Positions 6,659-64,000 of a DNA stretch of 64,000 nt are shown here, one piece after another. The DNA is from Lunularia cruciata (taxonomy: Eukaryota; Streptophyta; Marchantiopsida; Lunulariales; Lunulariaceae). The stretch covers positions 42,361,473-42,425,472 of the forward strand of contig OX419758.1 of NCBI GenBank assembly GCA_948567375.1, written 5' to 3'. The translations under genes were made by a program, and so were the position numbers. The number at the start of each line of letters is the position of its first letter. Position 1 is the first letter of the stretch. Below the pieces are notes generated by a model. The model was not told where the DNA came from and searched no databases. It worked only from the letters and a program-made list of their open reading frames with translations.

Positions 6659-6689
6659 ACACACAATGGCCCCAAAGAGAAATAAGCAG

Positions 6690-9090: not shown

Positions 9091-9205
9091 TAGATTTGAG
9101 ATATGAAGAGGTAGATATGAAGAAGTGGTTTATCATTTTGGATCTGTAAATTGGTAAAGTTGTTGTAGAATGGTATTTTTGTTACTAATTGTCAAGTGCA
9201 AAGCC

Positions 9206-9213
9206 TATTTAAA
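9206..9213 (+). promoter_or_regulatory. TATA-like box of U LTR copy 2
   Basis: TATTTAAA in CCTATTTAAAGGAAGC, 0.65 kb before the LTR end, at the same relative position as in the other U copies. Confidence 0.5.
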
Positions 9214-9857
9214 GGAAGCATTCATAGTGTGTTTTCTTTTGGTATTCATATTTTTGAAGTTAAGTAAAGCAAAGTGTTGTAACTCAGTGCTTGTCTTTTC
9301 AGCTTAATTTTGAGTATCAATCTTGTGTGTATGTTTGGGGAATTTTGATGTGCAAGTCAATGATCTTGTTGGATGTTGGATCTTGCAATTTCATTCTATG
9401 TGTTTGATCTTGAGTGGATAGCAATCAAAGCATAGATAGATTTGAGAGGAATTGTAGTGTTGGTAGTATTTTGCATTGATGAGCACAACACAAGGTTGAT
9501 GTGAAGCAATTTTGATCAAGGAAGTTGTGCTTTTAGTGGAGGGGTAGAACAAAATTTTGAGGTGAAGTCGTTTCATAGTGAAGTAGCCTTCTTCAAAACA
9601 GTTTGAATCATCACAATCAAGATTCTTTGGAAAGATTTGATGAAGTTGTGATTATAGGAGTGTAATTTGTGATGAGATTTTGAATCAATGCTTGACTCTC
9701 TTCTGGGTGTGGTTTCTACATGAGACTAAAGAAGAACTTAAGAAGAACTACATTGTTACTATTTACTTTGTATTTGACCATTTTTGAATTGTATCTCTTT
9801 GAGAATAAACTTTTACTTATTGATTACCACAAAAGTGATATATGTCAGGTTGTCACA

Positions 9858-30359: not shown

Positions 30360-31145
30360 CCCCCTAGTTGGCGGTTAGGTCCCTCTAACTCCAAATAGCC
30401 ATCTACTCCAAGTATATGTAAACTCTATGGTGGGTAAAAGATCAAGAGGCTGAGTGCTATTAACCCCATCATTAGTCGCTTGTTTGCAATCTTTACCATA
30501 TAAAGGATGAACTAACTATAGGTCAAGTACATCTAGCACATAACCACTATCCTTGAGGAACCACCATGAGGGAAGGAGTCATACATGCCATATGTCATCC
30601 TCTCAAATAGCTATCACACACTAACATAGTAGCAACTCCACCAAAAGAGCCGCATAACTATGGTACCCACATTTTTGTTTTTTTCTCATTTTGAAGAAGA
30701 AGTGTATAGATGAAGTTATTTTGCGCTTGTATGACATCAAAAGGCAAAGAATGGTGTCTTTGGGTTGTAACCCAACATAAAGTGACTTTGTGTCAAAAGA
30801 TGAAGTACTCGGATTTGCCCTATCAGCATGCAACCCAAAGTAAGGAGACTTCGGCTCGGGGGTGCTCAACCCAAGGTGAGGATAGTGTAACAACTTTCCT
30901 TCAAGATTGGACATTCAAGAAGGTACCATGCACAAAAACGGCTGGCCTATGAGCGGGAGGAAATTGACAATGACAGGAGCATGAAGGAGGTGTGATTTCT
31001 CGGTAGAAACTTGAAGTGAAGAAAGATGGAAGAAGTGTGCCACTATAAGATTCGGGCTAGAGACAAAGAGATGACAAGTAATTTTCCATTGCCCTTAAGA
31101 AGTCGTCCTGCATGAGATTGTGGGAAAGGAAGTGTAGTAGAAGAC

Positions 31146-32136
31146 GTGTTGGTGTGTCGAGAGGAAGTCAAGAGAGTTAGTTTGGGAATCAATTGGAAGA
31201 GTAGCCACCAACCCAAAGTGGAAGAGGGTAAGATGGGAGGTGGGAAGAAGAACTCAAAATTTGTAGTGAGAAATCATGCAATTCAGAGATTAGATGTGAT
31301 TGCTAGAATCAAAGTCTTGAGCAGGCTTTGGATCACATTCTTGGTATGGAACTGGAACATTAGCTTTCCAGGTTTCATGATCTGGCATGGAATTGGAACA
31401 TTAGCTTTCCAGGTTTCATGATCGGGATCATCAAGAGTAGATCTTGATCATGAAGATGGAAAGCTTGCTCTTGATGGACCCAAGGAAGAGGAGTAGAGAG
31501 GAAATCCGACTTGCTGGACAAAGTCGGATTGGAGGTAAGTACTTGGAAGAGAGGTGGGTAAGGAGCAAGGAGCCATGTTCTTGGGGAAAGGAGAGGTAGC
31601 AAAAGAAACCCAAGAAGTGAGAGATGCCTTCTCTTCAAAGTGCACAAAGAATGGTTACAAATTCAAGAGTTATAAGGACCCTGTGAGGAGAGGTATCATA
31701 AGTGCAATGATGGCTATCTTGAAGCCAAAGCAAACCACTTATGTTATGAAACATCAAACGATGTTCTTCCACAAGATGTTTGCAAGGGAGCCAATCAATT
31801 AGGCAAAGTGCTTTCATCAACGTGTGAGACAAATGGTGTGGAACTTGTGGGACAAGTCACCTCCATACTACATCGTACCGTTTGCAGCCCACTTCTACTT
31901 GGGATTGAATTTGCGGAATGCAACGAAGAGACACAAGATGGTGTCGTACTTCCATACCAATTTGAGAAGAGATGTTGATGCAAAGGAGCAACAATACATC
32001 TTGCAGATAAGAAGCAATGACGAGTACTACGCGCAAACAAGGCAGAGTGTGCAAATAAAGGTGAACACTTCAAAGTCAAAGAAGAGGAGTCAACAAGAAG
32101 AAGAAGAAGAAGAAGAAGAAGAAGAAGAAGAAGAAG

Positions 32137-32168
<32 letters not shown>

Positions 32169-33770
32169 GTAGTAGCGGCAATGAGACTTCAAAAGACCAG
32201 GAAGGTGAACCCAAGGAAAGACTTGGTGGTAATTGCATCATTGGACAAAGAATCAGAAGGGGAAGCCGAGGACAATTCAGAAGACTCGGAGAAGGAGGAA
32301 GAACTTGAATTCATTTTGTAGAGTGGTGAAGCAAGCAACGAGAGTGAAGATAGCATAGAGATGCAATTGGTACCCAAGGAGGAAGACGAGAGGATGGAAA
32401 TGGAGGAAGAATGTAACCCGAAACAAGAAGATGAATTTCTAGAGGAAGAGAAGAGGGTGACCATTTAGAGAGGAGTCTGTTCCAAAAGGAAGGCAAAGTA
32501 TGAAGTGGGACCAAGTAGGAGAAGAGAAGTAGCGAGTGGAAGTTTAGAGAGCAAAGAATCTATCCCAATAAGGCAATTGTGGCTGAGAAGAAGAGTGTCA
32601 AGCAAAGAAGAAGCAAAGAAGGAGGAAAGTCCACAAGCCAAAGTAAAGCAAAATGATGGAGTAGAGTATTTGCAAGAGGTTGTGTGCCAATTGTTAACCA
32701 AGTTGGAGCAAAAGAAGAAGGAGATGGAGTTCAAGTGTCTAGAGGTGAAGACTGTGTTGCAAGTATTAGCAAAATTAGAGGAAGAGAACTTGGAGTTGAA
32801 GAAGAGTATAATCTGAGGAGAAGAGGAGAGAGAAGTACTAAAAATAGATGCAGTAGTATAGAACCAAGTGATTGAAAACTTGAAAAGAGAAGTGGGAAGT
32901 AGAGAGCAAGTAATAAAGCAAAATGTCATAGCAAGGGAGAGACAGATAGTAGAGTATGAAATCTTGAAATAGTAGTTTGATGATTCATGATTAGAAATTA
33001 TTCATGTTATGGCAAGAGTAGCAAAGAAGGAGCAAGAGCTTGATAGAGTGATGGAGAATGTAGAAGAGAAGAAGCAGCTCTAGCAGAGAGAGTTGACAGC
33101 AAGATATAGAAAAAAAAAAGAGATTGTGGGAGTTACTTCATAATTTGGAAGAAAAGATTGTTCAGAAGGAGAAGGAGAAGGAGATTATGAAGGCCAAATT
33201 CAAGGCTGACTAGCAATGTATAGAGAAGATTGGTTGCGGATCAAGAACATGAAAGAAGAATGAGACTTGAGCCATTGAAGGAGATTGTCACAAAGATGAA
33301 TGTGATGTTGAGTACAGAAGTCAGCATAAGGATTGAAGAAACACGGTTGCACGAGTTGAAGTTGTTGGTACAAGAGACGAGGAGGAGAAAAACAAAGGAT
33401 AAAGATTTGAATGCCTTGCTGATTAGTCTCAAAACTTGTGTAGATAGGAAGATATTGGAAGTAGAAGATAATATCACAATTAGATTAGATTTAGTGAAGT
33501 TGGAGATAGAGAAACTTTGGAGGGATGTAAGAGCGAAGCCCAAAGTAGATGACATAGGAGTACAAATATCTTTGGAGTTACCATTAGAGATATTAGTGGG
33601 TTGGGAGATAGAGAATTAGAAAGGTTACCCATGACGGGAATTGTAGAACAAGAAAAAGAAGCGTTAGAATTGGTAGAAGAATAAGTTGTTGTGAAACCCA
33701 AGGATAGAGTAGTATGTGAGGTTACTTCAGATTGGAAGCCAAGGAAGAGGTAGACATCGGATCAGAGTAG
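31146..33770 (+). pseudogene. U3-resident ORF of family U, copy 3 (most complete)
   Basis: Pieces at 31146-31421, 31554-31802, 31824-32321, 32505-32816 and 33230-33619 follow each other with few breaks. The order is: GGGKKNSKFVVRNHAIQRLDV; hydrophobic LWITFLVWNWNISF; NGYKFKSYKDPVRRGI; QTTYVMKHQ, FFHKMFAREPIN, YYIVPFAAHFYLGLNL; a poly-Glu run; Lys/Glu-rich coiled-coil-like stretches; and LHELKLLVQETRRRKTKDKDL with VDRKILEVEDN near the end. The ancestral protein would be about 800-850 residues. No nuclease, RT, protease, zinc knuckle or transposase motif was seen. A short 50-bp duplication near 31371-31425 disturbs the N-terminal frame. Confidence 0.65.
32095..32166 (+). repeat. (AAG)n/(GAA)n tract coding poly-Glu
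   Basis: About 24 uninterrupted AAG units inside the U3 ORF, read as poly-Glu in the sense frame. The opposite strand gives a spurious poly-Leu ORF. Copies 2 and 4 have acidic sequence here but no long pure run. Confidence 0.95.
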
Positions 33771-33886
33771 TAATAGTTTTGAGATTTGAAGAGGCAGATA
33801 TGAAGAAGTGCATTGTCATTTTGGATCTACAAGTAGGAAAAGTTGTTAGGAAATGGTAAATTGTTAGTCCTTGTCGATTGCTTCAC

Positions 33887-33894
33887 TATTTAAA
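33887..33894 (+). promoter_or_regulatory. TATA-like box of U LTR copy 3
   Basis: TATTTAAA in CACTATTTAAAGGTGG, 0.67 kb before the LTR end, matching the position in the other U copies. Confidence 0.5.
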
Positions 33895-34561
33895 GGTGGA
33901 ATTTGCAGTCATATGTTGTTCAGTATTCATAATTTTTGAGAATAGATAAAGCAAAGTGCTGATTTTAGTACTCATTGCTTGAGCTTGATTCCGAGCATCA
34001 ACTTTGTATGTGTGCTTGTAAGTGTGTGGAGAATTTTGAAGTGCAAGGCAGTGTGCTTGTTGGATGTTGGATTCCGTAGCCTTGATCTTCATTCTACATG
34101 TTTGATCTTGAGTGAAGTGCAATCAGAGCAGTGCCTTGACAAATCTGAGATGAATTGTAGTGTTGGTAGTATTCTGCATTTGTGAGTGCAATGTAGTGTT
34201 GATGTGAAGCAATTTTGATCAAGGAAGTTGTGCCTTCAGTGGAGGGGTGGAACACAATTCTGAGTCAAAGTTGTTTTGCAATGAAGTGCCATTTTTAGGA
34301 GAATTTGAATCATCACAATCAAGATTGTTTGGAAAGATTTGATAGAGTTGTGATTAAGTATGACAAATTGTTGTGACAAGACTACAAGTCAGTGCTTGTT
34401 ACTCTCTTCTAGGTGTAGTTGCTACTTGAGAGATTAAAGACAAAATCAAGGACTACATTATGACATTTGACTTCATATTTGACCATTCTGAATTGTATCT
34501 TTGCAGGAACAAACTTTACTTACCTGATTACCGCAAAAGTGATATTTGCCAAGTTGTCACA

Positions 34562-47689: not shown

Positions 47690-47879
47690 GAACCATGGAT
47701 CCATAGTTGCAAGAACCAATGCAAGGAATGCAAGGGATGTTGAACTAGTTTTGGAAGATCAAGATGACCATGGAGGCATTAAAAAATCAAGTACAAACCT
47801 TCAAGAATGATAAAAAAATGAAGGAAGAGGAGCCATTGTCATACTTTTCCTTTCTCTCTCTGGGAACACAATAAGGTGC
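47690..47879. repeat. Interspersed repeat S, copy 2, left part
   Basis: The block ATACTTTTCCTTTCTCTCTCTGGGAACACA-TA-GGTGC matches S copy 1 at about 3630-3668. It is separated from the rest of copy 2 (62443 onward) by the complete U element. GGTGC at 47875-47879 is the left target-site copy. Confidence 0.7.
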
Positions 47880-48255
47880 TGTGGTACCCACATTTTTTTG
47901 TTTTTTTAAGTTTGTTCAATTTTGAAGAAGAAGTGTACAAATGAAGTTGTATCAAACCCAAAAAGCACTGGAACGAGAAGAACTAGGTCTTTGCTTTGTG
48001 ATTCCAAAGAAAAGTGACTTTGTGTTAGATGTGAAGTACTCATATCGGATCTATCAGAGTTTAACTCAAAGTAAAGAGACTTTGCCTCAGGGTGATCAAC
48101 CCGATGCAAAGACAGCGGAACAGATTTCCTTCAGGTTGGAAATTCAAGAAAGGTATAGCATACAAAAATGGCTAAGGCACAAGCAAGAGAAATTGAAAAT
48201 GACAAGAGAAGTGCATGCAAAAGGTATGATTTCTCGGTAGATAATCTTTTGAAGA

Positions 48256-50880
48256 ATGACTGAGAATCATTCGACTATAAAATCAGGTTTTGAAAAAAGA
48301 ACAAGACAAATGACAAGTGAATTTCCTTTACCTTTGCAAAGTCATCCTAAGGAAGACCAGGGTAGAGGAGTAGTAGTGAGTGAAGTTGTGAAGAATTTAG
48401 AGGACATGAGAGTTGCACGTCTAGGGGACAAGAGAATTTTCTTGCAGAAGCACATCACGAAGGAGAGTAGAATCTCAGGAATCAGGAAGTGCCCTACACT
48501 AGCAACAAGAAACCTAGTGATTAAGAGGTTAGATGTGATGGCTTGCATCAAAGTTCTCAATAAACTTTGCATTACTTTCCTTGCATGGAATTGGAACCTG
48601 AGTTTTCCAAATTTCATGGTCAAGATCACGGCTTGTAAATGTGTAGATGGGCTGGCGACAATGGGAAGAGAGGCAATCCGGCTTGATAGACAGAGTTGGA
48701 TTGGAATTTGGTGTCAAGAAAAGAGAGTGGAGAGGAGCATGGGGCCATGTTCTTGGGGAAGGGAGAAGAGGCAGAAGAAACCCAAGAGATTAGAGATTCT
48801 TTCACCTCTAAGCGTATGACGAATGGGTACAAGGTGAAGACATATTGAGACCCAGTGCAAAGAAGCATTATAGGTGTGATGATGGCCTTTTTCAAATCCA
48901 AGCGCACCACCTATGTGACAAAGGAGTAAGCGGTGTTCTTCCACAAGATGTTTGTAAGGAAACCAATCAACTGGGCAAAGTGCTTTTATCAACAAACAAG
49001 GCAAATGGTGTTGAATTGGAGGACGATGACACCACTACATTACTTTGTGCCTTTTGCAACACATTTCTACCTTGGGTTGAACCTATTAAGTAGTGAGGAC
49101 AAGAAGAAGATTGTCTCCTATTTCCATCTTGATCTGCAACAAGAAGCCAATGACGAGGAGTGATACTACATTTGGCAATTGAGAAGTAATGATGATCACT
49201 ATGCTAGAATAGAACACAATTGGAAGATGGTTGTGCCTTTGCCAAGCAAGAAGAAGAGAAGTGGACCTAAGGTGGAGAGCTTGCCAATGCAGCCCTAAAA
49301 ATTAAGTAGAATTGGGCAGAGCAAAGGGAAGCAAGTCCAACAGATTGCACTTGCAGTAGAAGTCAAATCAAAAGAAGAAGAAGAGTCCAAGTCGGAAAGA
49401 TTGGAGGAAGAAGAGGTGGAGTTAACTTGTGAAGTGAAGAATCCAATGAAGAAAGCAAAGGTGAACACAAGGTACAGCAAGATCAAGAGAAGGAGATGTC
49501 TCTACAAGAAGAAATCAAGCATTAGGATGTGGAAGAAGAAATTATGGCCGAGTTAGCAATTGAGGCAAAAGAAGGAATGGTGCCGGAGCCAAGGAAATGC
49601 ACACCAGAAGGAGGAGGTGCAAAGGCGGCCCGATAGATCATAAATTTGGATGATGAAGAGAGTTTGGAGGACAAGGAGTCACTGACAATACAAAGATCCT
49701 GACTTCCTAATAAGACCTTGGGCTCGGAAGGAAGGCATCCGATCACTAAAGAGAAGGTAGTAGAAGAAGAAGGATGCAAGGGAGTAGAGTATCTTTGGGA
49801 TGTGGTATGTCCATTATTATTGTAGATGGAGAAGGAGAAGAAGGAGATGCAAAGCAAACATCCCAACGTACAGACAACATGGCAGGTGTTGGAGATATTA
49901 GAGATTGAGAATCAAAAGTTGCAAGAGAATCTGAGTAGAGGAGAAGAGGAAAGGGAAATTTTGCAAGTAAATGCAACATTGCAAAAGAAGCTCAACGAGA
50001 ATCTACAAGAGAAGTTTGAGAAGTAGGGGAGGGAGTTGGCAATGAAGGTGAAGGAGGTTATGCACAAAAGACTTCGAATGGAGAAGTTACAAGCCAAAAT
50101 GAAGGCGGAGCAAGAGAAGGGCAAAGAAATGGTAGAAGCTAAGAAAAAAGAGTTCAACGCATTTTGCCAGAAGGTAGAAGAGAAGACAACCGCCTAGCAG
50201 TAGGAAGTTGTTAAACAAGATCAAGAAGAAGGAAGGCTGAGAGATCTGGTGTAGATGTTAGAGGCAAAGATTGACCAGTATGTGAAGGCATTGGAGGATC
50301 ACACAACTGAGTATGAGGAGGAGTTGAAACTCAGCAAAGCTGTGATGGAGGAAGAACAACAAAGGAAGCAATTGGAGGATTCACTTGAAGGAGCAATTGT
50401 GGAGTTGAAGGTAAAAATGACCACAAAAGCCAAAGTGAGAATGAAGAAATCATTTTTACATGAATTATGATGCTAGTGCAAGAGACACATAGTAAGAATG
50501 CAAAGAAGAAGGATCTGAATGCCTTGTTGATCAGTCTTAGGACTTGGGTTGATAGGAAGATGTTAGATGTAGAGATTAATATTTCTATTAGACTCGGACT
50601 GATTAAATTAGAGTTAGAAAGTCTTTGGAATATTATGAGTATCATACCCAAAGTAACAAAGATAGTAGTGCAAGTGTCTTTGGAGGTAACATTTGACATT
50701 TTAGAGAAGAGTGGGTCGGAAGATAATGAGTTAGAAGGATACTCACTAGTACAATTGTAGTTTGTAGTGAAGAGGTAGTAAAAATAGTAAAGAACTTAGT
50801 AGAATTATTAAGACCCAAAATACAGGAGATGATGGGACTTTCTTTGGGTTGAAAGCCAAAGTGGATGTAGACATTTGAGA
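48256..50880 (+). pseudogene. U3-resident ORF of family U, copy 4
   Basis: The first frame (48256-48819, 187 codons) contains VIKRLDVMACIKVLNKLCITFLAWNWNLSF. A frameshift leads to RKPINWAKCFYQQTRQMVLNW and LHYFVPFATHFYLGLNLLSSEDKKK (48933-49163). After a stop comes QLRSNDDHYAR. The middle is Lys/Glu-rich with coiled-coil-like repeats (49826-50026, 50255-50470). The C-terminal block KDLNALLISLRTWVDRKMLDVE follows in 50467-50760. Unknown function; the same unknown protein is implied by all five U LTRs. Confidence 0.65.
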
Positions 50881-50986
50881 TAGGAAGAGGCAAATATGAA
50901 GAAGTGCATTTTCAATTTAGATCTGCAAGCTGGTAAAGTTGTTAGGAAACAATTTAGGAAGTTAGATAACTATCAAGTGCTCAGTC

Positions 50987-50994
50987 TATTTAAA
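50987..50994 (+). promoter_or_regulatory. TATA-like box of the complete U element's 5' LTR
   Basis: TATTTAAA in GTCTATTTAAAGGCGG, 0.67 kb before the LTR end. The corresponding site in the 3' LTR (near 61766-61773) reads TGTTTAAA. Confidence 0.55.
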
Positions 50995-51669
50995 GGCGGC
51001 CTTCATAGTTCAATGTTGTTCAGTACTCATTTCCTTGAGTATAGATAAAGCAAAGTACTGTGAAGCAATGCTTGTTGCTTGAGCTTAATTTCGAGTATTG
51101 GTTCTGTGTTTGTGTTTGTGAGTGTTGAGAGAATTTTGAAGTGCAAGTCAATGTGTTTGTTGGATGTTGGATTCCACAACCTTGATCTTCATTTTATGTG
51201 CTTGATCTTGAGTGAAGTGCAATCAAAGCAATGCCTTGACAGATCTAAGAGGAATTGTAGTGTTGGTAGTATTTTGCATTTGTGAGTGCAGTGTTGAGTT
51301 GATATGAAGCAATTTAGATTGAGGAAGTTGTGCCTTTAATGGAAGGGTGGAACGCATTTTGAGGCAAAGTCATCTTACAGCAAAGTAGCCATTTTTGAGA
51401 GAGACTAAATCATCACAATCAAGATTGTTTGGAAAGATTTGATGGATATGTGATTAAGGAGTGTTAATTCATGACAAGAATGCATGTTAGTGCTTGTTAC
51501 TCTCTTTTGGGTGTAGTTTCTACCTTAGAGACTAAAGATGCAACCAAGAAGAACTAATTATTACCATTTGTCTTCATATTGACCAATTCTGACTTGTATC
51601 TCTATGGGAACAAACTCTACTTACCCAATTCTTGCAAAAGTGATATTTGCTGGATTATCACATGATTTT

Positions 51670-51687
51670 TGGCACCGCTGCCGGGGA
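51670..51687 (+). other. Primer-binding site, tRNA-Asp-like
   Basis: TGGCACCGCTGCCGGGGA, 7 nt after the 5' LTR end, matches the tRNA-Asp 3'-end complement used by several plant Ty3/gypsy groups at 16 of 18 positions. This establishes that 47880-51662 is a 5' LTR rather than part of a DNA transposon. Confidence 0.85.
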
Positions 51688-51750
51688 TACAAATCTTGGA
51701 AGTGGAAGAATACAAAGCCAAATTTTAAACTAAGTTTCTAACCAATATGA

Positions 51751-51993
51751 ATGTCTACATTGAGAGAACAACAAGAAGAGATAGTTCAAAGACAAACGTT
51801 GTACCGTGAAGAAGATGAACACCAAAAGACCCAATCTACTTTTGACAAAACCAAACAGGAGGCATTGGACTTTCAACTTCTTCATGAAGTTCAAGAAGCT
51901 TTGTGAGAACTTGAACAAAAGGACTGTGAAGGCGGGTGGCAAGGCTACTTCATGTCTCCATCTTCCAAGAAGAAGAAAATCTCCAGCGGGTAG
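51751..51993 (+). pseudogene. Short ORF in the U internal region, interrupted
   Basis: ATG at 51751 opens a frame MSTLREQQEEIVQRQTLYREE... of 51 codons to a TGA at 51904-51906. Beyond it the same frame stays open to a TAG at 51991-51993 (KDCEGGWQGYF, then Lys-rich). It is Gln/Glu-rich, in the position of gag, but no gag domain is recognisable. The rest of the 547-bp internal region shows nothing else. Confidence 0.45.
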
Positions 51994-52376
51994 ACATACT
52001 CGTTACAACTCAATACACCAACTTCCCCTAAAGTTGTAAAGTAAGTCAAATTTATAAAGAAATTTGTTCATGAAAAGATAGCACAAATCCTAATGGAAGA
52101 AGAGTGCCAACACCTCTTATGAATAGTTCATTGGTTGGCTTGAGGGAATTTTCAAGAGCACTCTGAAAGTGTTGAAACTCTTACTCCTTTTCTACTCAAA
52201 TTTTACATCTATGGTACCCACATTCTTGTTTTTTTCTTAACTTTAGAAGAGGAAAGGTACATATGAAGTCTTATTGTGCCTGTATGGCATCAGAAGGCAA
52301 AGAAGGAGTCTTCAGGTGGTAACCCAAAGTAAAGTGACTTTGTGTCAAAAGACAAAGTACTCAGAGGGGTCCTGTC

Positions 52377-53055
52377 TATGAGCCGGCCTGTCTCTCACTC
52401 AGGATGAACCTCTGATGGCTATTATGGTAGCGCACCATGGACTAAGAAGGCAAGGAACCCCAACTCCATCATACTCCTCCAAGGCTAACACTCCAAGACT
52501 CAAGACATTGCTCACTAGAGAACTCAATGAGAGAGAGATAGTTGCAAATGAAAGGATGATGAGTACCTCCTCACTCCTTGTTTATATACTTGTGAAATAG
52601 TTACGTACCAAAGTTACTAATTACCGTAGTAACTCAAGTTACTAGACTAAAAGTCAAGTAAAGTCAAAAAGTAGAAAGGAATATCCATTCACATGGGCAT
52701 ATTCCCCTTATCTTGACCCAACCACTAAAGCAAGGATTCCTTCACATGGGCTATCCTTGGACTAAAGAAGAATCCAAAACAAAAAGGCTTGCGGGCCCAA
52801 GAGTTCTCAACTCTTTCCCCAAAGCCAAACACCTAGGAATAATACCAAGTCAACACACTAAAATCCAAAATAGTGGTGCTCATCTTTTCCACTTCCTCCA
52901 AAGTAAGGTCCCATCTATCTTAGCTATGACTAACTTTAGCTAACCATGACTAATATAGAACCATCCTTTATCTCTATATAAATAATATCTCTTAAGTACT
53001 TGTAATACCAAGCTAAATATCACAATACCACACACATGCACAAATGGGTGTTACA
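52377..53055 (-). repeat. 3' LTR of G copy c
   Basis: 679 bp. In plus orientation it starts TATGAGCCGG where the partner starts TGTGAGCCGG, so the terminal CA of this LTR has mutated to TA on the minus strand. TATATAAA lies at 52581-52588 (minus strand), the likely promoter. Confidence 0.9.
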
Positions 53056-53067
53056 TTTACCCCCGGA
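53056..53067 (-). other. Polypurine tract of G copy c
   Basis: Minus strand CCGGGGGTAAA directly before the 3' LTR start TGTAACACCC; the usual primer site for plus-strand DNA synthesis. Confidence 0.7.
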
Positions 53068-53103
53068 CTAAGTTTTCACTTTGTCCTCAAAGTGAAGGTC
53101 TCT

Positions 53104-56100
53104 CTACCTTCTATGGTACATCTTCAACTTATCATGGTTAATCCTATCAAAGTGTCTTCCTCCCAACTCCTTGAGATCATAGGTGTAATTGCCCCACACC
53201 TTCTCTACTATGAAAGGTCCAAAGTACTTAGGCAAAAACTTCTTTTGCACTCTCTTGAATCGAATGGAATCAAACAACATTACCCAATCACCTTCTTTGA
53301 AAGGCTCCACCTTCTTCTTGCCTTGCCTCTTGTCATAGCTCTCCTTTTGTTTCCTTTGGGCTTGCTCCACTCGAACCATAGCAACTGCTCTTGCCTCTTC
53401 CAACTCCATGAGTTGATCCTTCCTTGACTTCCCTGCATCACTTCCTTGTGCTTTCTTCAATCTCCTATGAATGCTTTGGAAGGTAGGAAGATCAAAGTGA
53501 ATAGGTAAGGTAGACTCAATACCATACACCAATTGGAATGGAGAATATCCAGTGGAAGTCTTCATGGTTGTCCTATACTCCCACAAAACTGCATGAATCC
53601 TCTTGTCCCAATGATGTTTAGCCCCCTCCATTTCTGCATCTTTGGCCAACATCATGCACAAGGTCTGATTGGTTCTCTCTGCCAAGCCATTGGAATTTGG
53701 CTTATAGGATGTAGTTACTCTATGTGTGATAGAGAAATGTCGTAGCATGGCTGTAGTAATGCTTCCTGTAAACTCTCCTCCTCTATCAGAAACCAACTCC
53801 AAAGGGCATCCAAACCTAGTGATAATGCATTCATAAAGAAATCTACCCACTTCATCTTCATTCTTGTCCCTCAATGGTCTAGCCTCAACCCACTTGGTAA
53901 GGTAATCAGTAACTACCACAATGTACCGATTGTTCCTTGGGGTTCTATTGAGAGGTCCTACAAAATCAATTCCCCACTTCTCAAAAGGTCCTAGTAATGG
54001 AATTGATCTAAGTGGTGGAGTGGATGTAGACTTTTTAGCAAAAGCTTGACAAACATGACAAGTTTTGCAATAATCAAGACAATCCTTGAAAATCCCTCTC
54101 CAATGGTAACCTACATCTAGAATCTTGAAAGCAGTCACCTTTCCTGCAAAGTGTCCTCCACATACTAAACCTTCATGAAACTCCTTTATGAGTAGGATAG
54201 ACTCTTCCTTACCCACTGCTCTTCGAAGTAGACCATCTGCTCCTTGGTGAAAAAGAATATCCTCCACCATTGTGTAAGGTCTAGATCTTGCTGCAAGGGC
54301 CTTCCTCTCCCTAGCATGCATCCCTTCTGGATAGTTACCTCTTGTCACAAAATCCACAATCTCCTTGTACTCCATTGGAATCTCTTGAGTGACTGAGATT
54401 GTCATGAGCTCCTCATCCGGGAAGGAATCATCTACTGGCTCATCTCCATCATGATCATAGGCTCTAGATAACAAATCAGCATTTGCATGTTTCTTTCCTG
54501 GCCTATCCTCAATTGTGTAGTCATACTCAAACAAGAGTATCATCCACCTTGCTAGTCTCCCTTCAACATTAGGCTTGTTGAAGATGTACTTCAAAGCCTT
54601 GTGATCCGTGACAATTGTGGTTTTCCCTCCAATCAAGTAGTGTCTAAACTTCTTGAGACCAAAGATCACTGCCAACCCTTCTCTCTCTGTGACAGAGTAG
54701 TTCTTCTCTGCTGAAACCATCTGCCTACTAGCATAAGCTATTGGATGATCATGCCCATCTTGGTCTAATTGACTAAGAGTGCATCCTATAGCTACATTAG
54801 AAGCATTAGTGTAGAGGATGAAAGGCTTACTCCAATCAGGTTTAGCAAGAATTGGAGCTACAACAAGGGATTGCTTGAGCTCCTCAAAAGCTTTGAGAGC
54901 CTCCTTGTCTTCCAAAATCACCATGTAATCTACACCCTTCTTCATGTAGATGGTCAATGCATAAGCCTTGTTGGAAAATGAGAAGATGAACCTCCTATAG
55001 TACCCAACCATTCCCAAGAATTGGCGTAACTTTGTCAAGCTTGAAGGGAATGGAAGGTCTGAGATTTTCCTCACCTTCTCAGGATCAACTGCTATTCCAT
55101 CCTTGGAGATGATGTGCCCCAAAAGTAGACCTTCTTCACATCCAAAAATGCACTTCTCTGGGTTGAGTGATGCATTTGCCTCATCCAAGCGTTGCAAGAC
55201 TTTGATTAGGTGATCAAAGTGCTCCTCCTTGCTCCCATAGACACAAAAGTCATCAATGAAATCTCTCACAAATTTCCCAATGAAAGGTTCAAATACCTTG
55301 TTCATGAACCGTTGGAATGTGGCTGGAGCATTGCAAAGCCCAAAAGGCATGACCTTGAAAGCGTAAGTTCCCCAAGGTGTGGTGAATGTGGTGAGTTGTT
55401 GATGCTCTGGTGCAATCTTTATTTGGTTATATCCACTATAACCATCTCCAAAACTGTACCTCTCATGACCTGCAACCTCCTCCAAGATCTCATCAATGAA
55501 TGGCAATGGGTAGTAGTCCTTCTTGGTAACAGCATTAAGCTTCTTGTAATCCACACATACCCGAAGCTTGCCATTCTTTTTCTTCACAATGACAATTGGA
55601 GACACCCATTCTGAATTCTCCACCTCAAAGATAAATCCAGCCTCCTTGAGCTTATCAATCTCCTCCTTCACAACCAAAGATATTGGTGGGCTAATGCGAC
55701 GTTGCTTTTGGCGGATTGGTCTTGCATGTGACTCCACCTCTATCTTGTGCTCCTCCAAGGTGACTTCCTTCAAATCCTTGTAACTAAAAGCAAACACATG
55801 GATGAACTTGCGGAAAATCTCCTCAAATCTCACCTTCTCCTCCTTGGTAACATTTGGGCCATACTTGAGGGTAGATAACCTTCTCTCTACCTCCTCAAGT
55901 GTCAATGGTGATTTATCTGGGTCCTTCAAAACCTCTGGCTTAGGTGCAAAATCCATAGCACACAAGGGATACACATCTGAATCAGATTCAGATTCATCTT
56001 CCTCCGTGGAAGTCTCCTCTTCCATGCTTGTGTCCACACCTGAAGCTCCTTCTTCAGAATCTGATTCCCAATAATTAGAAGATGGGGTATCTGAATGTGA

Positions 56101-57930
56101 AGTGTTGGTGGTGTTAGTCACAGGAACAGTGACTCTATGGTTTGATGGCCCAATCCTCAAGTACCCTTTGTGCCATCGATCAGTTGTGCGTGCTGCTCTC
56201 AACCATGGCCTCCCAAGAAGTAAGTCATAGCTTGAATCCTTCAAGACTTGGAAAGTCATGAGATTTTGAACTCCCATAACTGAAACTACCACCTTATCCA
56301 TCACCCCTACTGGTCGAACTTGTTGCTTGTTTGCCATGCTCACCACAAATGTTGAAGGTCTTGAGGGTATCATACCCAACTTCTTCATCAACCTTTCTGA
56401 CATGGCATTCACTGCTGATCCTCCATCAACCAATGCATCCTTGATGTTGTGACCATTCACTCTCACATCAATCTTGGAGGCATATTCACAAGCCTCCCAT
56501 GGTGCTGGCTTGGCATCCACCACCACCATTGATACTGGAACTTTTGCCTTCTTCTTCTTTTTGCTCCTTGTAGAACTCAAACCACCTCTAAGCTCCTTTC
56601 TCAAGGTAGGGTTCAAAGCAATTAATTGGCCCACTGTGATGTTAGCCTTGTGACTACCAACATCCTCCAACACATTGTAGTTCCATTGTTGCTTTGAGAT
56701 CAAGAAGTCCTCCATCCCCAACTTCTTCCTTGAAATCTTTGTTGTTGATGGTGTTGAGGTGCGAGTGCTCCTAGTAGACATAGGAGTATCCTTGCTTGAA
56801 GTAAATCCTTGAGAAGAGTGAACATCCTCTGCAAAACGAGCTCTCTTCTTCTCTTGTGCCAAAAGCTCCAAATTAAGACCCTTGGAGTTTGAGCACTCTC
56901 CCTTCTCATACTTGCTCTCAACCACATCTATGGATGCTATCCCCTTACCTTTGTTGGGATTAGGAGCCACTTGGGTTTCACTACCTCCCTCTTTCCCTCT
57001 ATTGGCTCCCTCATAACCCCTTCCTCCATGGTAAGTGGAATTTGGGCAATTCCTTTGGATATGGCCTCTTCCTCCACAACCAAAACAATTTCTATCATTG
57101 AAATTGTTGGCTGGTTGGCCTCCTCTATATGGATAGTTTCCATAACTCCTAGGTCCTCTCCCTACATTCTGATCCACCTCTCTCTTCTCCCATAGTTGCA
57201 CCACATTGATCTTGAGATCCGCAAGTTGTTCTATGATGGTTTGGAGTGGATCTTTTGGTGGAGGTGCAAGAATTGGAGCAACTACTACTTGTGGTGCAAC
57301 CCTTGTCACCAAAGTATCAGAAGTTCCACCATACTTGTAGCCTTGAGGAGGATGCACAACCTCCTTCACCACCAAATCACTCTCATCCCCTTCCAAACTC
57401 TCCTCCATACGAATTGCGATCTTGATAGCTTCAACCTTGGAAGAAGGTTTCTCATATCTCACCTTGCTTCTAATTTGTGGTCTCAATCCTCCCACAAAAT
57501 TCTTGGTGAGCATGGCCCCTATGCCAATCATTGTAGTCTCCACATCATCCCCACCCTTCCTCAACACTATGCGAAATCTGGACTCCAATTTTTCCACTCT
57601 TTCCACATAGACTCTCACTTTCTCTCCATCTCCTTGCTTGAGAAATGTAACCTCACTCATCAATCTCTCATAACTCTCATCAGGAAGAAAGTTCTCAATG
57701 AGTGCTGAAGTCAAAGTCTCCCAAGACTCCTCTTCCCCCTCTCTCCTCTCTCTCTTTTGGTATTCTGACTCATACCATGTAAGTGCTGCATCCTCAAAGA
57801 AATCTGGTAATAATGAGGCCCACTCATTCTTCCTCCTCTCATTGTTTCCTATGCAAGCTCTCTTGAAGTCTCTCACAAAGGCCTCCACATCTTCTCCATC
57901 CTTGCCAAAGAAAACCGGAAGTTTCCCCAT
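53104..57930 (-). CDS. Ty3/gypsy gag-pol polyprotein, 1608 aa, one ORF
   Basis: Gag core 14-185; zinc knuckle C282-x2-C285-x4-H290-x4-C295; aspartic protease DGGSAVN with D502. RT about 740-960: Asp 829 in FGDGYSGYNQI and FIDD with D893/D894. RNase H about 1036-1155, with TNAS at 1041-1044 where the catalytic Asp is expected; E1082, D1109 and D1152 are in their usual places. Integrase: H1252, H1260, C1291, C1294, then D1322, D1382 and E1418 (35 residues between the last two). GPF motif at 1571-1573; no chromodomain follows. Gag and pol share one frame with no stop or shift. It makes the particle, protease, RT/RNase H and integrase in the cytoplasm and nucleus. The Asp-to-Asn change suggests defective RNase H. 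Start chosen at the first Met before the conserved KLPVFFGKDGEDVEAF; frame and domains are certain. Confidence 0.95.
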   Translation of the reverse strand: MGKLPVFFGKDGEDVEAFVRDFKRACIGNNERRKNEWASLLPDFFEDAALTWYESEYQKRERREGEEESWETLTSALIENFLPDESYERLMSEVTFLKQGDGEKVRVYVERVEKLESRFRIVLRKGGDDVETTMIGIGAMLTKNFVGGLRPQIRSKVRYEKPSSKVEAIKIAIRMEESLEGDESDLVVKEVVHPPQGYKYGGTSDTLVTRVAPQVVVAPILAPPPKDPLQTIIEQLADLKINVVQLWEKREVDQNVGRGPRSYGNYPYRGGQPANNFNDRNCFGCGGRGHIQRNCPNSTYHGGRGYEGANRGKEGGSETQVAPNPNKGKGIASIDVVESKYEKGECSNSKGLNLELLAQEKKRARFAEDVHSSQGFTSSKDTPMSTRSTRTSTPSTTKISRKKLGMEDFLISKQQWNYNVLEDVGSHKANITVGQLIALNPTLRKELRGGLSSTRSKKKKKAKVPVSMVVVDAKPAPWEACEYASKIDVRVNGHNIKDALVDGGSAVNAMSERLMKKLGMIPSRPSTFVVSMANKQQVRPVGVMDKVVVSVMGVQNLMTFQVLKDSSYDLLLGRPWLRAARTTDRWHKGYLRIGPSNHRVTVPVTNTTNTSHSDTPSSNYWESDSEEGASGVDTSMEEETSTEEDESESDSDVYPLCAMDFAPKPEVLKDPDKSPLTLEEVERRLSTLKYGPNVTKEEKVRFEEIFRKFIHVFAFSYKDLKEVTLEEHKIEVESHARPIRQKQRRISPPISLVVKEEIDKLKEAGFIFEVENSEWVSPIVIVKKKNGKLRVCVDYKKLNAVTKKDYYPLPFIDEILEEVAGHERYSFGDGYSGYNQIKIAPEHQQLTTFTTPWGTYAFKVMPFGLCNAPATFQRFMNKVFEPFIGKFVRDFIDDFCVYGSKEEHFDHLIKVLQRLDEANASLNPEKCIFGCEEGLLLGHIISKDGIAVDPEKVRKISDLPFPSSLTKLRQFLGMVGYYRRFIFSFSNKAYALTIYMKKGVDYMVILEDKEALKAFEELKQSLVVAPILAKPDWSKPFILYTNASNVAIGCTLSQLDQDGHDHPIAYASRQMVSAEKNYSVTEREGLAVIFGLKKFRHYLIGGKTTIVTDHKALKYIFNKPNVEGRLARWMILLFEYDYTIEDRPGKKHANADLLSRAYDHDGDEPVDDSFPDEELMTISVTQEIPMEYKEIVDFVTRGNYPEGMHARERKALAARSRPYTMVEDILFHQGADGLLRRAVGKEESILLIKEFHEGLVCGGHFAGKVTAFKILDVGYHWRGIFKDCLDYCKTCHVCQAFAKKSTSTPPLRSIPLLGPFEKWGIDFVGPLNRTPRNNRYIVVVTDYLTKWVEARPLRDKNEDEVGRFLYECIITRFGCPLELVSDRGGEFTGSITTAMLRHFSITHRVTTSYKPNSNGLAERTNQTLCMMLAKDAEMEGAKHHWDKRIHAVLWEYRTTMKTSTGYSPFQLVYGIESTLPIHFDLPTFQSIHRRLKKAQGSDAGKSRKDQLMELEEARAVAMVRVEQAQRKQKESYDKRQGKKKVEPFKEGDWVMLFDSIRFKRVQKKFLPKYFGPFIVEKVWGNYTYDLKELGGRHFDRINHDKLKMYHRR

Positions 57931-58166
57931 CTTAACCCCTCACTATCTATCTTTCCTCTCAATTTTATTTTTTCTCTTTTCTTTTCTCTCACTCTATTAC
58001 TAATAGAGTATATACATGACTAACACCATCTGAGAATAATCCACTCTAGGGAACACAAAAGGTTCAGGTTGCTCCAAGATTTCTATAGCAACATCAAATC
58101 CTAGAGTGCATATTAATCTAACTCTCATGGATAGTTTATCCATAAGTTGAAAGATTATCTCCATCA

Positions 58167-58664
58167 CTAATCTTGAGAACTAGCTGATGAAGGTGGTAGT
58201 ATTTCTGTAGCTGTACTAAGACTCTCTCCAAGATCCTTCACCAAAGTTTCCAAAAGTGCTTTTACTCCACTACACTCATGTCCTTTTGGAAGTCCTTCAA
58301 CTCCACAAACCTCACACAACTCCTTGGTCTTAGATCTTCTCCCTCCCAATCTTGGTGAAGAAGGTCCAACATGCAAACCCAAGTCAAGTAAGCCTCTCCT
58401 TTCCCTCAATCTCTTGCTCTCAAAGGTTAATGGACATGAACTTGCCTTATGTCCCTTCTCTCCACATAGAAAGCACTTAGACTCACTCTTTCCTCCAAGT
58501 GGTGTAGGTTTTTGGATCCTCTCAACACTCTCTTCAAATTCTATTGTAAACTCTCTTTTCCTCAAATCCACCCCTACAATCACCTCAAACCCTTGGGGAA
58601 CCTTGCATAATCTCAATTTCCACTCTTGATGACCCTCCATGTTCCCAAAGATGAATCTAAACAC
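58167..58664 (-). CDS. ORF0: 165-aa zinc-knuckle protein upstream of gag-pol
   Basis: Separate ORF on the same strand, ending 236 bp before the gag start. It has a CCHC knuckle C64-x2-C67-x4-H72-x4-C77 and a second Cys-His cluster C117-x2-C120-x8-H129-x-C131, with a basic linker between (SKRLRERR, LGGRRSKTK). Length and content point to a small nucleic-acid-binding protein; role unknown. Translation may start at Met1 or at Met9 (MEGHQEW). Remnants of the same ORF sit at the same place in G copies a (1-314, 2758-2820) and b (45544-45900), so it is a stable part of the family and not a chance frame. Typical plant Ty3/gypsy elements have no such ORF before gag. Confidence 0.8.
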   Translation of the reverse strand: MFRFIFGNMEGHQEWKLRLCKVPQGFEVIVGVDLRKREFTIEFEESVERIQKPTPLGGKSESKCFLCGEKGHKASSCPLTFESKRLRERRGLLDLGLHVGPSSPRLGGRRSKTKELCEVCGVEGLPKGHECSGVKALLETLVKDLGESLSTATEILPPSSASSQD

Positions 58665-59477
58665 TCAAACATGCTTTTTGTTGATCTCAAACTTCTCATG
58701 CATGAGATCTCCACTCTGCAGAATTGACCCTTCCTCACAATGTCACTCAAATCTCCCAACCAATATGTCACAGTCCTCTGAAATTTTCCACACTTGATCA
58801 CAACTCTAGGGCGTCCCTCCCTGCAAAATTTTAGATCTTTTCATCGAGCCATTTGGCCTAGACACCTTTCTATTCAGCACCCATATTTCAGATTTGGTCT
58901 GAAAACCACCCCCCTCACTTCAAAAACTCATAACGCACTGCGCAAAAATGATCTCTCTCTAATTTTTGTGGCACCAGGTAGGATACAATGCACTGAATTT
59001 TCTTGGAAATTTTCAGGACAATTCACTAAAAATTGAAGAAATGGCAAACTCTGTACAGTTTTCCAGAGAGCATGTAGTTGCGGGAGCACTTTACCCTATC
59101 AACTTTCAAAAATTCTAGCCCAGTGCGCATAGAAGCTCTCTCAATAATTTCAAGTGTGCTAACTGAAAGATAACCCAAGCTATCATGTGTAGAAATCTCA
59201 AGTCCAGATCTCAAACTTGAGATTTTGCCCAAAATCACCTTAATCCCCAAAATCTGCAATCCACCTCACACAATCTCTCCAATTCCTCTCATGTGTACAA
59301 GATGTACAAAATCACCTCAAAGACATCATAATGAACTACAGGGTATACAAATGGATCTTGGTTCTCTAACATAAGTTCAGCCCTCTCCTCTCCTAATGTT
59401 CTCTCCAAGTGAGCTCTCATAGCCTCCTTCTGCCTAATGTAGAATTGGACGCGGAACATTATCTTGCCTTCTAGAGA
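58665..59477 (-). other. 5' leader of G copy c
   Basis: About 0.8 kb between primer-binding site and ORF0 without a convincing protein. It is absent from about 58898 on in copy b because of the deletion there. Confidence 0.6.
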
Positions 59478-59496
59478 GGTCCCGGCAACGGAACCA
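59478..59496 (-). other. Primer-binding site of G copy c
   Basis: Minus strand TGGTTCCGTTGCCGGGACC, 4 nt after the 5' LTR end. It resembles the tRNA-Asp-type site (TGGCGCCGTTGCCGGGGA) with a few mismatches. Confidence 0.7.
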
Positions 59497-59500
59497 AAAA

Positions 59501-60179
59501 TGTGAGCCGGCCTGTCTCTCACTCAGGATGAACCTCTGATGGCTATTATGGTAGCGCACCATGGACTAAGAAGGCAAGGAACCCCAACTCCATCATACTC
59601 CTCCAAGGCTAACACTCCAAGACTCAAGACATTGCTCACTAGAGAACTCAATGAGAGAGAGATAGTTGCAAATGAAAGGATGATGAGTACCTCCTCACTC
59701 CTTGTTTATATACTTGTGAAATAGTTACGTACCAAAGTTACTAATTACCGTAGTAACTCAAGTTACTAGACTAAAAGTCAAGTAAAGTCAAAAAGTAGAA
59801 AGGAATATCCATTCACATGGGCATATTCCCCTTATCTTGACCCAACCACTAAAGCAAGGATTCCTTCACATGGGCTATCCTTGGACTAAAGAAGAATCCA
59901 AAACAAAAAGGCTTGCGGGCCCAAGAGTTCTCAACTCTTTCCCCAAAGCCAAACACCTAGGAATAATACCAAGTCAACACACTAAAATCCAAAATAGTGG
60001 TGCTCATCTTTTCTACTTCCTCTAAAGTAAGGTCCCATCTATCTTAGCTATGACTAACTTTAGCTAACCATGACTAATATAGAACCATCCTTTATCTCTA
60101 TATAAATAATATCTCTTAAGTACTTGTAATACCAAGCTAAATATCACAATACCACACACATGCACAAATGGGTGTTACA
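59501..60179 (-). repeat. 5' LTR of G copy c
   Basis: 679 bp, plus-strand ends TGTGAGCC and GTGTTACA. Likely promoter TATATAAA at 59705-59712 on the minus strand. The three differences from the other LTR are the terminal base noted there and two C/T changes near 60013 and 60022. Confidence 0.92.
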
Positions 60180-60506
60180 TGTCAACATTCAACCCAAAGT
60201 AAGGATACTTCGGCTCATGGGCGCTCAACCCAAGGTAAGGATAGTGTAACAACTTTCCTTTGGGGTTGAACATTCAAAAAGGTACCGCACATAAAAAAAT
60301 GGTTGGCCTATGAGTGGGAGAAAATTGATAGTGATAGGAGCATGCAAGAGGTGTGATTTCTTGGTAGAAACTCAAAGTGAAGAAAGACGGAGGAGGCACG
60401 CCACTATAAGATTTGAGATAGAGATGAAGAGATGACAAGTAATTTTCCATTGCCATGAAGAAGTTGTCTAGAGGAGGATTGTGGAAAAGAGAGTGTAGTA
60501 AGAGAC

Positions 60507-61650
60507 ATGCTAGTGCATCAAGCGGAAGCCAAGAGAGTTAGTCCAAGAATAGATCGGAAGAGTAGTCACCAACCAAGAATGGAGGAGAGAAAGATGGGAG
60601 GTGGGAAGAAGAACTTGGAATTTTTAGTGAAGAATCATGCAATTTGGAGATTAGATGTGATAGCAAGAATTAAAGTCTTGAGCAGACTTTGGATCACATT
60701 TTTGGCATGGAACTAGAACCTTAGCTTTCCAAGTTTCATGATTGAGATGATTGAGAGTAAATGTCTTGATGGACCCAAGGCAAAGGGTAAGAGAGGAAAT
60801 CTGGCTTGTTGGACTGAGTTGGATTGGAGGTTAGTACTTGGAAGAGAGGTGGGTGAGGAGTAGGGAGCCACGTTCTTGGGGAAAGGAGAACTAGCTGAAG
60901 AAACCCAAGAAGTGCAAGATACCTTTTCTTTGAAACACATGAAGAATGGCTACAAAGTCAAGAGTTACAAGGACCCAATGAGGAAAGGCATTGTAGGAGC
61001 AATGATGGCTATCTTCAAGCCGGAGCAAACTACTTATGTGATGAAATATCAAGCGGTGTTCTTCCATAAGATGTTTGTAGGAGCCAATCAATTGGGCAAA
61101 GTGCTTCCATCAACATATGAGAAAAATGATGTGGATTCACTTGAAGGAGTGCTCGTGGAGTTGAAGGTGAAGTTAACCACAGAATCCAAAGTGAGAATGG
61201 AGGAATTGCATTTATACAAATTACGATCTTGGGGCAAGAGACGCGCAGTAAGGACGCAAAGAACAAGGATTTGAATGCCTTGTTGATCAGTCTTAGGACT
61301 TGGGTTGATAGAAAGATGTTAGATGTAGAGAATAACATTTCTATTTGACTTGGACTAATTAAGTTAGAGCTAGAAAGTCTTTGGAATATTGTGCGTATCA
61401 GAACCAAAGTAATAGAGATAGGAGTGCAAGTGTCTTTGGAGGTGACATTTGACATTTTAGAGAAGAGTTGGTCGGAAGGTAATGAGTCAGATAGGATACC
61501 CACTAGTACAATTATAGTTTGTAGTGAAGAGGTAGTAGAAAAAGTAAAGGACTTAGTAGAATTAGATAGACCCAAAGTACATGAGGTGATGTGACTTTCC
61601 TCAAGTTTGGAAGCCAAAGTGGATGTAGACATTGGATCGGATTAGGATAA
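60507..61650 (+). pseudogene. U3-resident ORF of family U, copy 5 (internally deleted)
   Basis: Frame 60507-60716 has GGGKKNLEFLVKNHAIWRLDVIARIKVLSRLW. Frame 60876-61274 has NGYKVKSYKDPMRKGI, QTTYVMKYQ and FFHKMFVGAN, then jumps at YEKNDV directly to DSLEGVLVELKVKLTTESKVR, which lies 1.36 kb further in copy 4. The C-terminal block follows to about 61650. Same unknown protein as in the other U LTRs. Confidence 0.6.
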
Positions 61651-62442
61651 TTTTGAGATAGGAAGAGGTAGATATGCAGAGGTGCATTGTCATTTCGAAT
61701 CTATAGGTTAGTAAAGTTGTTAGGAAACAATTTAGGAAGTTAGATAATTGTCTAGTGCTCAATCTGTTTAAAGGAGGCCTTTGTAGTTTAATGTTGTTTA
61801 GTACTCATTTTCTTGAGCATAGATAAAGCAAAGTGCTGTGAAGCAATGCTCGTGCTTGAGCTTAATTCCAAATATTGATTCTATGTTTTTGTTTGTGAGT
61901 GTTGAAAGAATTTCAAAGTGCAAGTTAGTGTGCTTGTTGGATGTTGGATTCCATAGCCTTGATCTTCATTCTGTGTGCTTGATCTTGAGTGAAGTGCAAT
62001 TGGAGCAATGCCTTGACAGATTTGAGAGGAATTGTATTATTGGTAGTATTTTGCATTTGTGAGTGCAACGGTGAGTTGATGTGAAGCAATTTTGATCAAG
62101 GAAGTTGTGCCTTCAATGGAGAGGTGGAACACAAATTTTGTAGTGAAGTCATCTTATAGCAAAGTAGCCATTTTTGAGAGAGATTGAATCATCACAATAA
62201 AGATTGTTTGGAAAGATTTGACGGATTTGTGATTAAGAAATGTTAATTTGTGACAAGATTGCACATTAGTGCTTGTTACTCTCTTTTGGGTGTAGTTTCT
62301 AACTGAGAGACAAAAGATGCAATCAAGAAGAACTACTTATTACCAAAAAATTTTGTATTTGACCAATTTTGACTCATATCTCTACAAGAACGATCTTTAC
62401 TTACCCAATTACTACAAAAGTGATATTTTTTGGGTTGTCATA

Positions 62443-64000
62443 GGTGCCTAGTTGTGGAGACTACAGATTAGAGGCTAGAGGTAAACTTGTAACTACTTGA
62501 CTTAACAACCATGTTACCCAACTGCCGGAATGCTCCTTTCTCATAACTAATATTCTTGCTATTGGGAAGAGTAGTGATGGGAAACCTAACTTATCATCAC
62601 AACATGCACTCTTGGTCTACTAGTCATCACTTTGACATTACCAAGGAGAATTACATAAAACTCCTAGAAGGAAAAAAACTAAATGCAATGCCCACACACC
62701 AATCCAAACCAACTGGGTATACAAACATGCATGCAAGCACAGAGAGGATCCAATCCCAAGAATATGGCAACAACTCTTTGTGCTTTTTGTCAAAAAAGAG
62801 CTTTAGAGCCTTCTTGCTCTATCATCAAGCTCATTTCAACTTGTACTCCAAGTCTCCTCCAATCTGAACTTCAGATTTCAAAAAAATTTTACTCCAAGTG
62901 CAGTATTCCTATGTCTTCTTGATGGGGAAAACTTTGCAAAGCTCATATGAACATAAATTTTTTTGTGTAGCTTGGATTCAAGTGTTGTGAATGTCAATGG
63001 AAAGCTTGTAAGATAAGTTTTCCAATGACATAAAATAGGCCTCAATCAAATCACTAAAGTTCTCCTAACAACCTCTCACTAAGTGTTTTGCATCTTTCAT
63101 CCTAATTTTGAAACCCCTATTTTAGGGTTTTCTATTGGTTCTTGGCAATTTATCTCTAGATTTCTCATTTGAAAGTACACTTGATCCTTACAAACACTTT
63201 GGCACCTTGAATCCCTCAATAATATCACAAGATAGGAGATGGAAGATAAAAACTGCTCTATCAAGCTTATGAGCTTATGATATGAAATTTGCAGCAGAAT
63301 GTTTTGCATCAGATCTCACTCTCCACAGATCTAGAGATAACCAACTTTTTCACAATAGTTGGTTGTTTCCTTGTATAAACTCCTACAAATTTTGTAGCCT
63401 AATCCAATCCCAGTCCCTAGATATAGATCAATTCTTGAGCTGGGCTAACTTGTGAGCTCTATAGACCCAGGTACACTTGATCCAAGACCTTGAATTCTAT
63501 ATTTCAAGAATTCATATGAAACCTTCACATAGAGGTAAAAATCATAACCAACAACAAAATTGGAAATTTTCATAAAGTGACTTGAATCACAACTTGGGGA
63601 GTGACCAAAACTTCAAACCTGATCATCAACTCTTCTCCAACACCTTACATCTCAAAAGCTTCAACTTCAACCAATCAAATCTGAGTTAAGATTGATCTAA
63701 AGCTAGAATATCTTGTGCTCAGAGCTATGAAAATTGTTTTCTTTCCAATCCTACCAATAACTCATGAAAAGGTTTCAAGAAGGGTTCTTGAAAAGGTAAG
63801 AAGCTCTCCCAATTGCCTACTTTGTGCTCTTGGATATGAATTCTACCTGCCTTGACTCAATTGATGATATCCCTCTCAAAATCTGCTCAAATTGTCTGAT
63901 TTTGGTCTTTAGATTGTAGCTTGTCAGCTCCCCTCTCCAACCGCAATCTCCATTCCTTGAATGCCCTCCCCAAAATTCCCCAATGGTTGAAAAATCTAGA
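62443..64000. repeat. Interspersed repeat S, copy 2, right part
   Basis: Resumes at the right GGTGC target copy and aligns with 3664 to about 5100 until the window ends. No long ORF; short frames at 62556-62867 and 63097-63309 are not supported by the other copy. Confidence 0.7.

Follow-up and report, generated by a model that had tools for sequence, protein, structure and literature searches.

Probable accessory gene in the U3 region of a Ty3/gypsy-type retrotransposon family of Lunularia cruciata

The stretch of 64,000 nucleotides of Lunularia cruciata analysed here (GCA_948567375.1, contig OX419758.1, forward-strand positions 42,361,473 to 42,425,472), called the window in what follows, contains five long terminal repeat (LTR) copies, U1 to U5, which self-comparison of the window assigns to one retrotransposon family with LTRs of 2.4–3.9 kb, and each of them carries the remains of the same long open reading frame (ORF). 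The question that this locus raises is what kind of element encodes a protein within its LTRs, and whether that protein is all that it encodes. The initial annotation took the ORF for the main coding sequence of an element lacking gag and pol. The explanation that we consider probable is a different one, namely a Ty3/gypsy element with gag-pol plus an accessory gene of about 870–880 codons encoded in the unique 3' (U3) region of the LTR, a layout like that of the sag gene of mouse mammary tumour virus (MMTV). The third LTR of the window is always referred to as the U3 copy, to keep it apart from the U3 region.

Open ORF pieces of another genomic copy matched all five LTRs in order by tblastn, with much of the ORF middle missing from U1 and U5, which bears out the earlier statement that the five share one decayed long ORF preceding a conserved box. 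This TATA-like box reads TATTTAAA in U1 to U4 and TGTTTAAA in U5. The complete copy of the window spans 47880 to 62442, with the target site duplication (TSD) GGTGC flanking both sides, and only 547 bp (51663–52209) separate its LTRs, U4 and U5, the latter being interrupted by a nested gypsy element at 52379–60179. The earlier description of this interior stands as regards its length and the lack of pol, while its supposed freedom from gag does not: a primer binding site (PBS) and a leader are present, together with the 5' portion of gag. The PBS, TGGCACCGCTGCCGGGG, is presumably of the tRNA-Asp type.

An interior of 547 bp would suit an element without gag or pol, with its sole gene in the LTR and moved in trans, in the manner of large retrotransposon derivatives (LARDs). 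The other genomic copies make such an explanation barely tenable. A DNA query composed of the end of U4 and the 547 bp gave at least 43 matches, with 40 of 10,984 first-look candidates scored, and thirty of them were taken as loci L009–L038, where L009 is the window copy itself, leaving 29 others. A second query with the first 1434 bp of the ORF gave at least 41 matches of 69–100% identity (40 of 7,281 candidates scored), and the copy number of the family, as an uncounted estimate, appears to be high. The common sequence extends past the 547 bp in 26 of the 29 other copies (exceptions L016, L030 and L037), and 25 have matches to parts of gag located entirely beyond these 547 bp (exceptions L015, L016, L030 and L037). 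Moreover, 28 match pieces of the U3 ORF that precede the box (exception L017), both downstream gag and U3 ORF being present in 24. The view of the ORF as the main coding sequence of an element devoid of gag and pol is thus not supported.

One copy of 13.7 kb presents the order LTR, PBS, gag, zinc knuckle, reverse transcriptase (RT), RNase H, integrase, polypurine tract (PPT), LTR. The gag-pol copy on contig C1, which was read as separate pieces (L040, L036 and L039), has its 5' LTR at 43765053–43768803 and Pfam matches to Retrotrans_gag (3e-5), RVT_1 (1.5e-12), RT_RNaseH_2 (1e-10) and Integrase_H2C2 (1.9e-10); its protease is visible by eye only and gave no Pfam match, and a zinc knuckle match (7.8e-8) was obtained in copy L033. 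The domain order gag, RT, RNase H, integrase, found by Pfam in the L039 pieces, is that of Ty3/gypsy elements. In the C1 copy the PPT GAAGGAGGGGG stands immediately 5' of the 3' LTR, the two LTRs are 90.8% identical, and the flanking duplication is imperfect (TCTCT/TCTCC, 4 of 5 positions). The boundary between pol and the 3' LTR was fetched for 12 further copies; integrase end, PPT, LTR start and U3 ORF were all found in five of them, and LTR start plus U3 ORF in one more. The PPT is therefore seen in the C1 copy and in five of 12 others, the PBS in the window copy and in its relatives, and TG..CA LTR ends with 5-bp TSDs in U1, the U3 copy, the U4/U5 pair and one further copy. Judging from these features, the family would be a high-copy Ty3/gypsy-type LTR retrotransposon of plant type with a conventional gag-pol interior. 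Apart from this, the gag of copy L038 is interrupted by a family member, a solo LTR (L072, from about 1104 onward, and L085) with the TSD CCAAG, after which gag resumes, and therefore the family inserts into itself.

As regards the window copy, it is an old internal-deletion derivative in which the LTRs, the PBS and a stub of gag have been retained, while deletion has removed pol altogether and gag for the most part. Copies such as L010, L013 and L016 align as far as the last bases of the 547 bp, where they run on in gag, whereas in the window a junction inside gag leads directly to the start of the LTR, no more than TAT (perhaps CTAT) being shared, and the PPT of the gag-pol copies is missing; both the junction and the missing PPT count further against a LARD-like element, as do the pol, PPT and second LTR of several other copies. 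Since U4 and U5 are only 84.8% identical across their last 1.3 kb, the insertion is old. A reading of U5 as a nested insertion in the gag of the U4 element was ruled out, the GGTGC after U5 matching the left flank of U4.

In the gag-pol copies the PPT adjoins the LTR start and the ORF lies downstream of the PPT, and several copies have it in both LTRs. In the 5' LTR of the C1 copy it spans 43765402–43768005 in a single frame that stops divide into four open pieces, with the TATA-like box following at 43768125, about 0.68 kb from the LTR end; the ORF thus ends about 0.12 kb ahead of the box, and TATTTAA was found in 24 of the 30 loci L009–L038. Because the ORF ends before the TATA-like box, and because the PPT directly precedes the LTR, its placement in U3, as proposed in the initial annotation, is supported, with the PPT, the LTR ends and the box as its basis rather than mapped transcripts. 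It might be objected that the LTR limits were misread and that the ORF simply lies between pol and the 3' LTR, like the additional ORFs described as common in plants in an extract of PMC7264820. The probability of such an error is practically negligible, given that the ORF also precedes the PBS within the 5' LTR, that TSD-flanked solo LTRs carry it, and that the PPT stands before it. A second alternative is that transcription begins near the LTR start, in which case the ORF would belong to a leader resembling the repeat and unique 5' (R-U5) regions and would be translated as a 5' cistron. The approximately 350 bp of LTR upstream of the ORF agree with it, as does the status of the TATA-like box as a putative promoter, but the box is conserved and lies past the ORF stop, at a distance from the C1 LTR end which fits an ordinary R-U5, and we regard this alternative as unlikely.

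Codon-level selection was assessed by the third-position excess, both against a reference copy and with disjoint pairs, and by the ratio of nonsynonymous to synonymous substitution rates (dN/dS) by Nei-Gojobori, which as applied here lacks a transition-bias correction, the neutral yardstick being about 0.5 and not 1. Against the reference, third-position ratios were 1.85 (n=8), 1.62 (7), 1.76 (14), 1.80 (15) and 1.98 (29) for segments of the ORF and 2.22 (n=25), 1.83 (29) and 2.08 (22) for segments of gag, with 1.11 (n=34) for R-U5, 0.90 (28) for the leader and 0.97 (2) for the stretch before the ORF as controls. The third position was the highest in 29 of 29 comparisons of ORF segment U3e and in 18 of 34 of R-U5, the latter being above one third, possibly as an effect of the shared reference. 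With disjoint pairs, mean ratios were 1.89 for U3e, 2.15 for segment U3d, 1.98 for gag and 0.98 for R-U5, and the fractions with the third position highest were 0.99, 0.96, 0.96 and 0.21, respectively. Within a subfamily (19 copies) the ratio of the ORF was 1.23 and that of its core 1.16, while the core reached 2.27 between subfamilies. When the LTRs of the C1 copy were compared with each other, changes in segment U3a were flat by codon position (30, 31, 31).

The dN/dS comparison across copies, suggested by the initial annotation, points the same way, namely to purifying selection between subfamilies: it was 0.12 for the core (n=10, range 0.10–0.17) versus 0.49, 0.53 and 0.71 for the three frames of the R-U5 control (n=27 each). 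Values of 0.24 (n=27, 0.11–0.58) were obtained for the C-terminal half of the ORF, 0.17 (n=19) and 0.19 (n=15) for gag, 0.29–0.40 for the ORF within a subfamily, and 0.52 for the LTR pair of a single element. The ORF evolved as a protein, in a pattern of selection during transposition and free decay after each insertion. Were it an unused passenger in U3, such as a captured coding piece from the host or from another element, as the decay of every copy examined and the lack of a family match could indicate, change would be flat throughout; therefore, the constraint on the core between deeply diverged subfamilies, near that of gag, counts against a passenger, change being flat when an element's own LTRs are compared. 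We hold the passenger explanation to be highly unlikely.

Several observations weigh against a selected U3 gene in a gag-pol family. None of the copies examined has the entire ORF open, the longest open piece (among loci L041–L060) having 514 codons. The first part of the ORF gives a weak signal, with third-position ratios of 0.84 within and 1.43 between subfamilies, and the dN/dS of U3e, 0.33 (n=23), has a range (0.11–0.56) that overlaps the controls. Among the 12 boundary fetches, one gave the integrase end with the first LTR bases, one the integrase end only and one a nested solo LTR, and in three the DNA search found nothing. A TSD together with the two outer ends was recovered for just one of the seven elements tried (L033, ATATG). 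Furthermore, the TATA-like box, although conserved, is a promoter only putatively, and the case as a whole is drawn from the genome sequence, from which we infer both expression and function of the U3 gene.

The protein is helical, acidic and rich in coiled coil. It comprises a hydrophobic N-terminal motif, a conserved core (FFHK..F...PINWA.CF..R.RQMV.N......PHY.VPFA.HFYL.LNL), an acidic middle and a tail that by eye resembles a coiled coil. Between groups, matched pieces of it are about 33–55% identical, those of gag mostly 45–80%. The earlier remark that it matches no family is upheld by the searches carried out: Pfam gave weak and inconsistent matches below the cut-off only, PHROGs one weak and unconvincing match, and neither a PDB profile search nor a search of viral contigs gave any match. 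For a 77-residue piece from the window, AlphaFold2 in single-sequence mode predicted four helices with a mean pLDDT (predicted local distance difference test) of 77.4, and Foldseek of this model against the PDB found no neighbour (best E 5.3).

In an element of this layout transcription would start below the TATA-like box. The ORF of the 5' LTR would then fall outside the RNA, and the genomic RNA would contain only that of the 3' LTR, behind gag-pol. All 12 LTR starts compared (window U1–U5, L039, L040, L065–L067, L069 and L070) have a T-rich tract within their first 40 or so bases followed by AG, which together may provide the U3 gene with a splice acceptor. Because this tract and AG stand just inside the LTR start, a spliced 3' message would be the likeliest source of the protein, with about an even chance of being the true one, the alternatives being an internal promoter or one outside the element. 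A short frame that lies at the start of the LTR was tried as a coding exon and rejected, with third-position ratios of 0.84 and 0.72. The role of the protein would most likely be accessory, acting in trans to gag-pol: we tentatively suggest raised expression or escape from silencing, and with less confidence a structural or chaperone role. As for the origin of the layout, it is an evenly balanced proposition that a Ty3/gypsy lineage shifted its LTR start, that is the PPT, upstream of a 3' accessory gene and thereby made this gene part of U3. If true, every insertion would bring two copies of the gene and every solo LTR one, which amounts to a self-duplicating accessory gene in an element of plant type, its protein having an undescribed fold.

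The features of the family in the window are given in Table 1; U2 lacks a clear TSD.

Table 1. Features of the LTR family within the window (window coordinates)
Feature	Positions	Strand	Basis
TSD GGTGC, left	47875..47879	.	read from sequence
U4, 5' LTR of the complete, internally deleted copy	47880..51662	+	sequence and self-comparison
Decayed U3 ORF in U4; core 48651–49262, C-terminal part 49772–50736	48307..50736	+	tblastn, open pieces of L040
TATA-like box TATTTAAA in U4; R-U5 next	50987..50994	+	sequence; TATTTAA in 24/30 loci L009–L038
Internal region: leader and 5' gag fragment; deletion junction at right end; PPT absent	51663..52209	+	
PBS TGGCACCGCTGCCGGGG	51670..51686	+	read from sequence
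U5 (3' LTR), left part	52210..52378	+	sequence and self-comparison
U5 (3' LTR), right part; U3 ORF decayed and shortened at 60381–61642	60180..62442	+	self-comparison, tblastn
TSD GGTGC, right	62443..62447	.	sequence
U1, solo LTR, TSD GAGAT; U3 ORF decayed and shortened	315..2757	+	self-comparison, sequence, tblastn
U2, LTR with insert; U3 ORF core at 6706–7314	5411..9857	+	self-comparison, sequence, tblastn
U3 copy, solo LTR, TSD ATAAC; ORF at 31011–33595	30659..34561	+	self-comparison, sequence, tblastn

Other elements surround these copies. The Ty3/gypsy element nested in U5 (52379–60179) has an open gag-pol frame of 1611 codons on the minus strand, and its LTR matches, 99.7% identical across 678 bp, indicate a young insertion. 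An older relative of it, 92% identical over 6.5 kb, lies at 39697–46766 with broken frames and LTR-like ends 97.4% identical. At 26511–27920, on the minus strand, an open frame of 469 codons has a partial RT match (RVT_1, 3.9e-8) and falls outside the U3-ORF family, and remains of a gypsy gag region at 1–314 and 2759–3628 are split by the solo LTR U1.

LARD-type elements are non-autonomous, with long LTRs, and form families without coding capacity. The window copy resembles them in its long LTRs and in lacking pol and most of gag, but it is one copy, reduced by deletion, in a gag-pol family of which 25 of the 29 others examined have gag. This underlines a concern for annotation, since a single deleted copy can mimic a new element class, just as a coding gene can hide in a long LTR. 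In addition, solo LTRs, usually deemed inert promoter-bearing remnants, here retain a gene, and losing the interior of an element need not remove all of its proteins.

The family is also similar to the plant Ty3/gypsy elements with additional ORFs, either env-like (Athila, Bagy2) or antisense (Grande, RIRE2, Retand), as characterized in an extract of PMC7264820, in that many gag-pol copies bear an extra long ORF, and it agrees in orientation with the env-like type, the U3 ORF having the same sense as gag-pol. Its protein, however, has no family match to env-like or other proteins. Moreover, the same extract describes the additional ORFs of plants as lying in the internal region of the element, unlike the present ORF, which is found inside U3 of both LTRs, after the PPT. 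PMC6317226 gives counts for extra ORFs located "in the 5' or 3' part of the element", and these counts may include ORFs inside LTRs without singling them out. A literature search at the level of titles and abstract openings gave no plant precedent for an ORF within an LTR.

MMTV offers a parallel in layout. Its sag is an accessory ORF in U3, present in both LTRs and, in the genomic RNA, near the 3' end only. The U3 ORF shares with it the presence in both LTRs, at a place which the PPT and the TATA-like box support as U3, and, if transcription starts below that box, would also share the restriction to the 3' end of the RNA. The sag gene, nevertheless, belongs to a vertebrate retrovirus, its protein is unrelated and much shorter, and its expression is known, whereas that of the U3 ORF is deduced. 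Coding genes in U3 are described chiefly from a small number of vertebrate retroviruses, and a selected U3 gene in a high-copy Ty3/gypsy family of plant type would mean an independent origin of this layout. The parallel between MMTV sag and the U3 ORF is one of layout and not of kinship.

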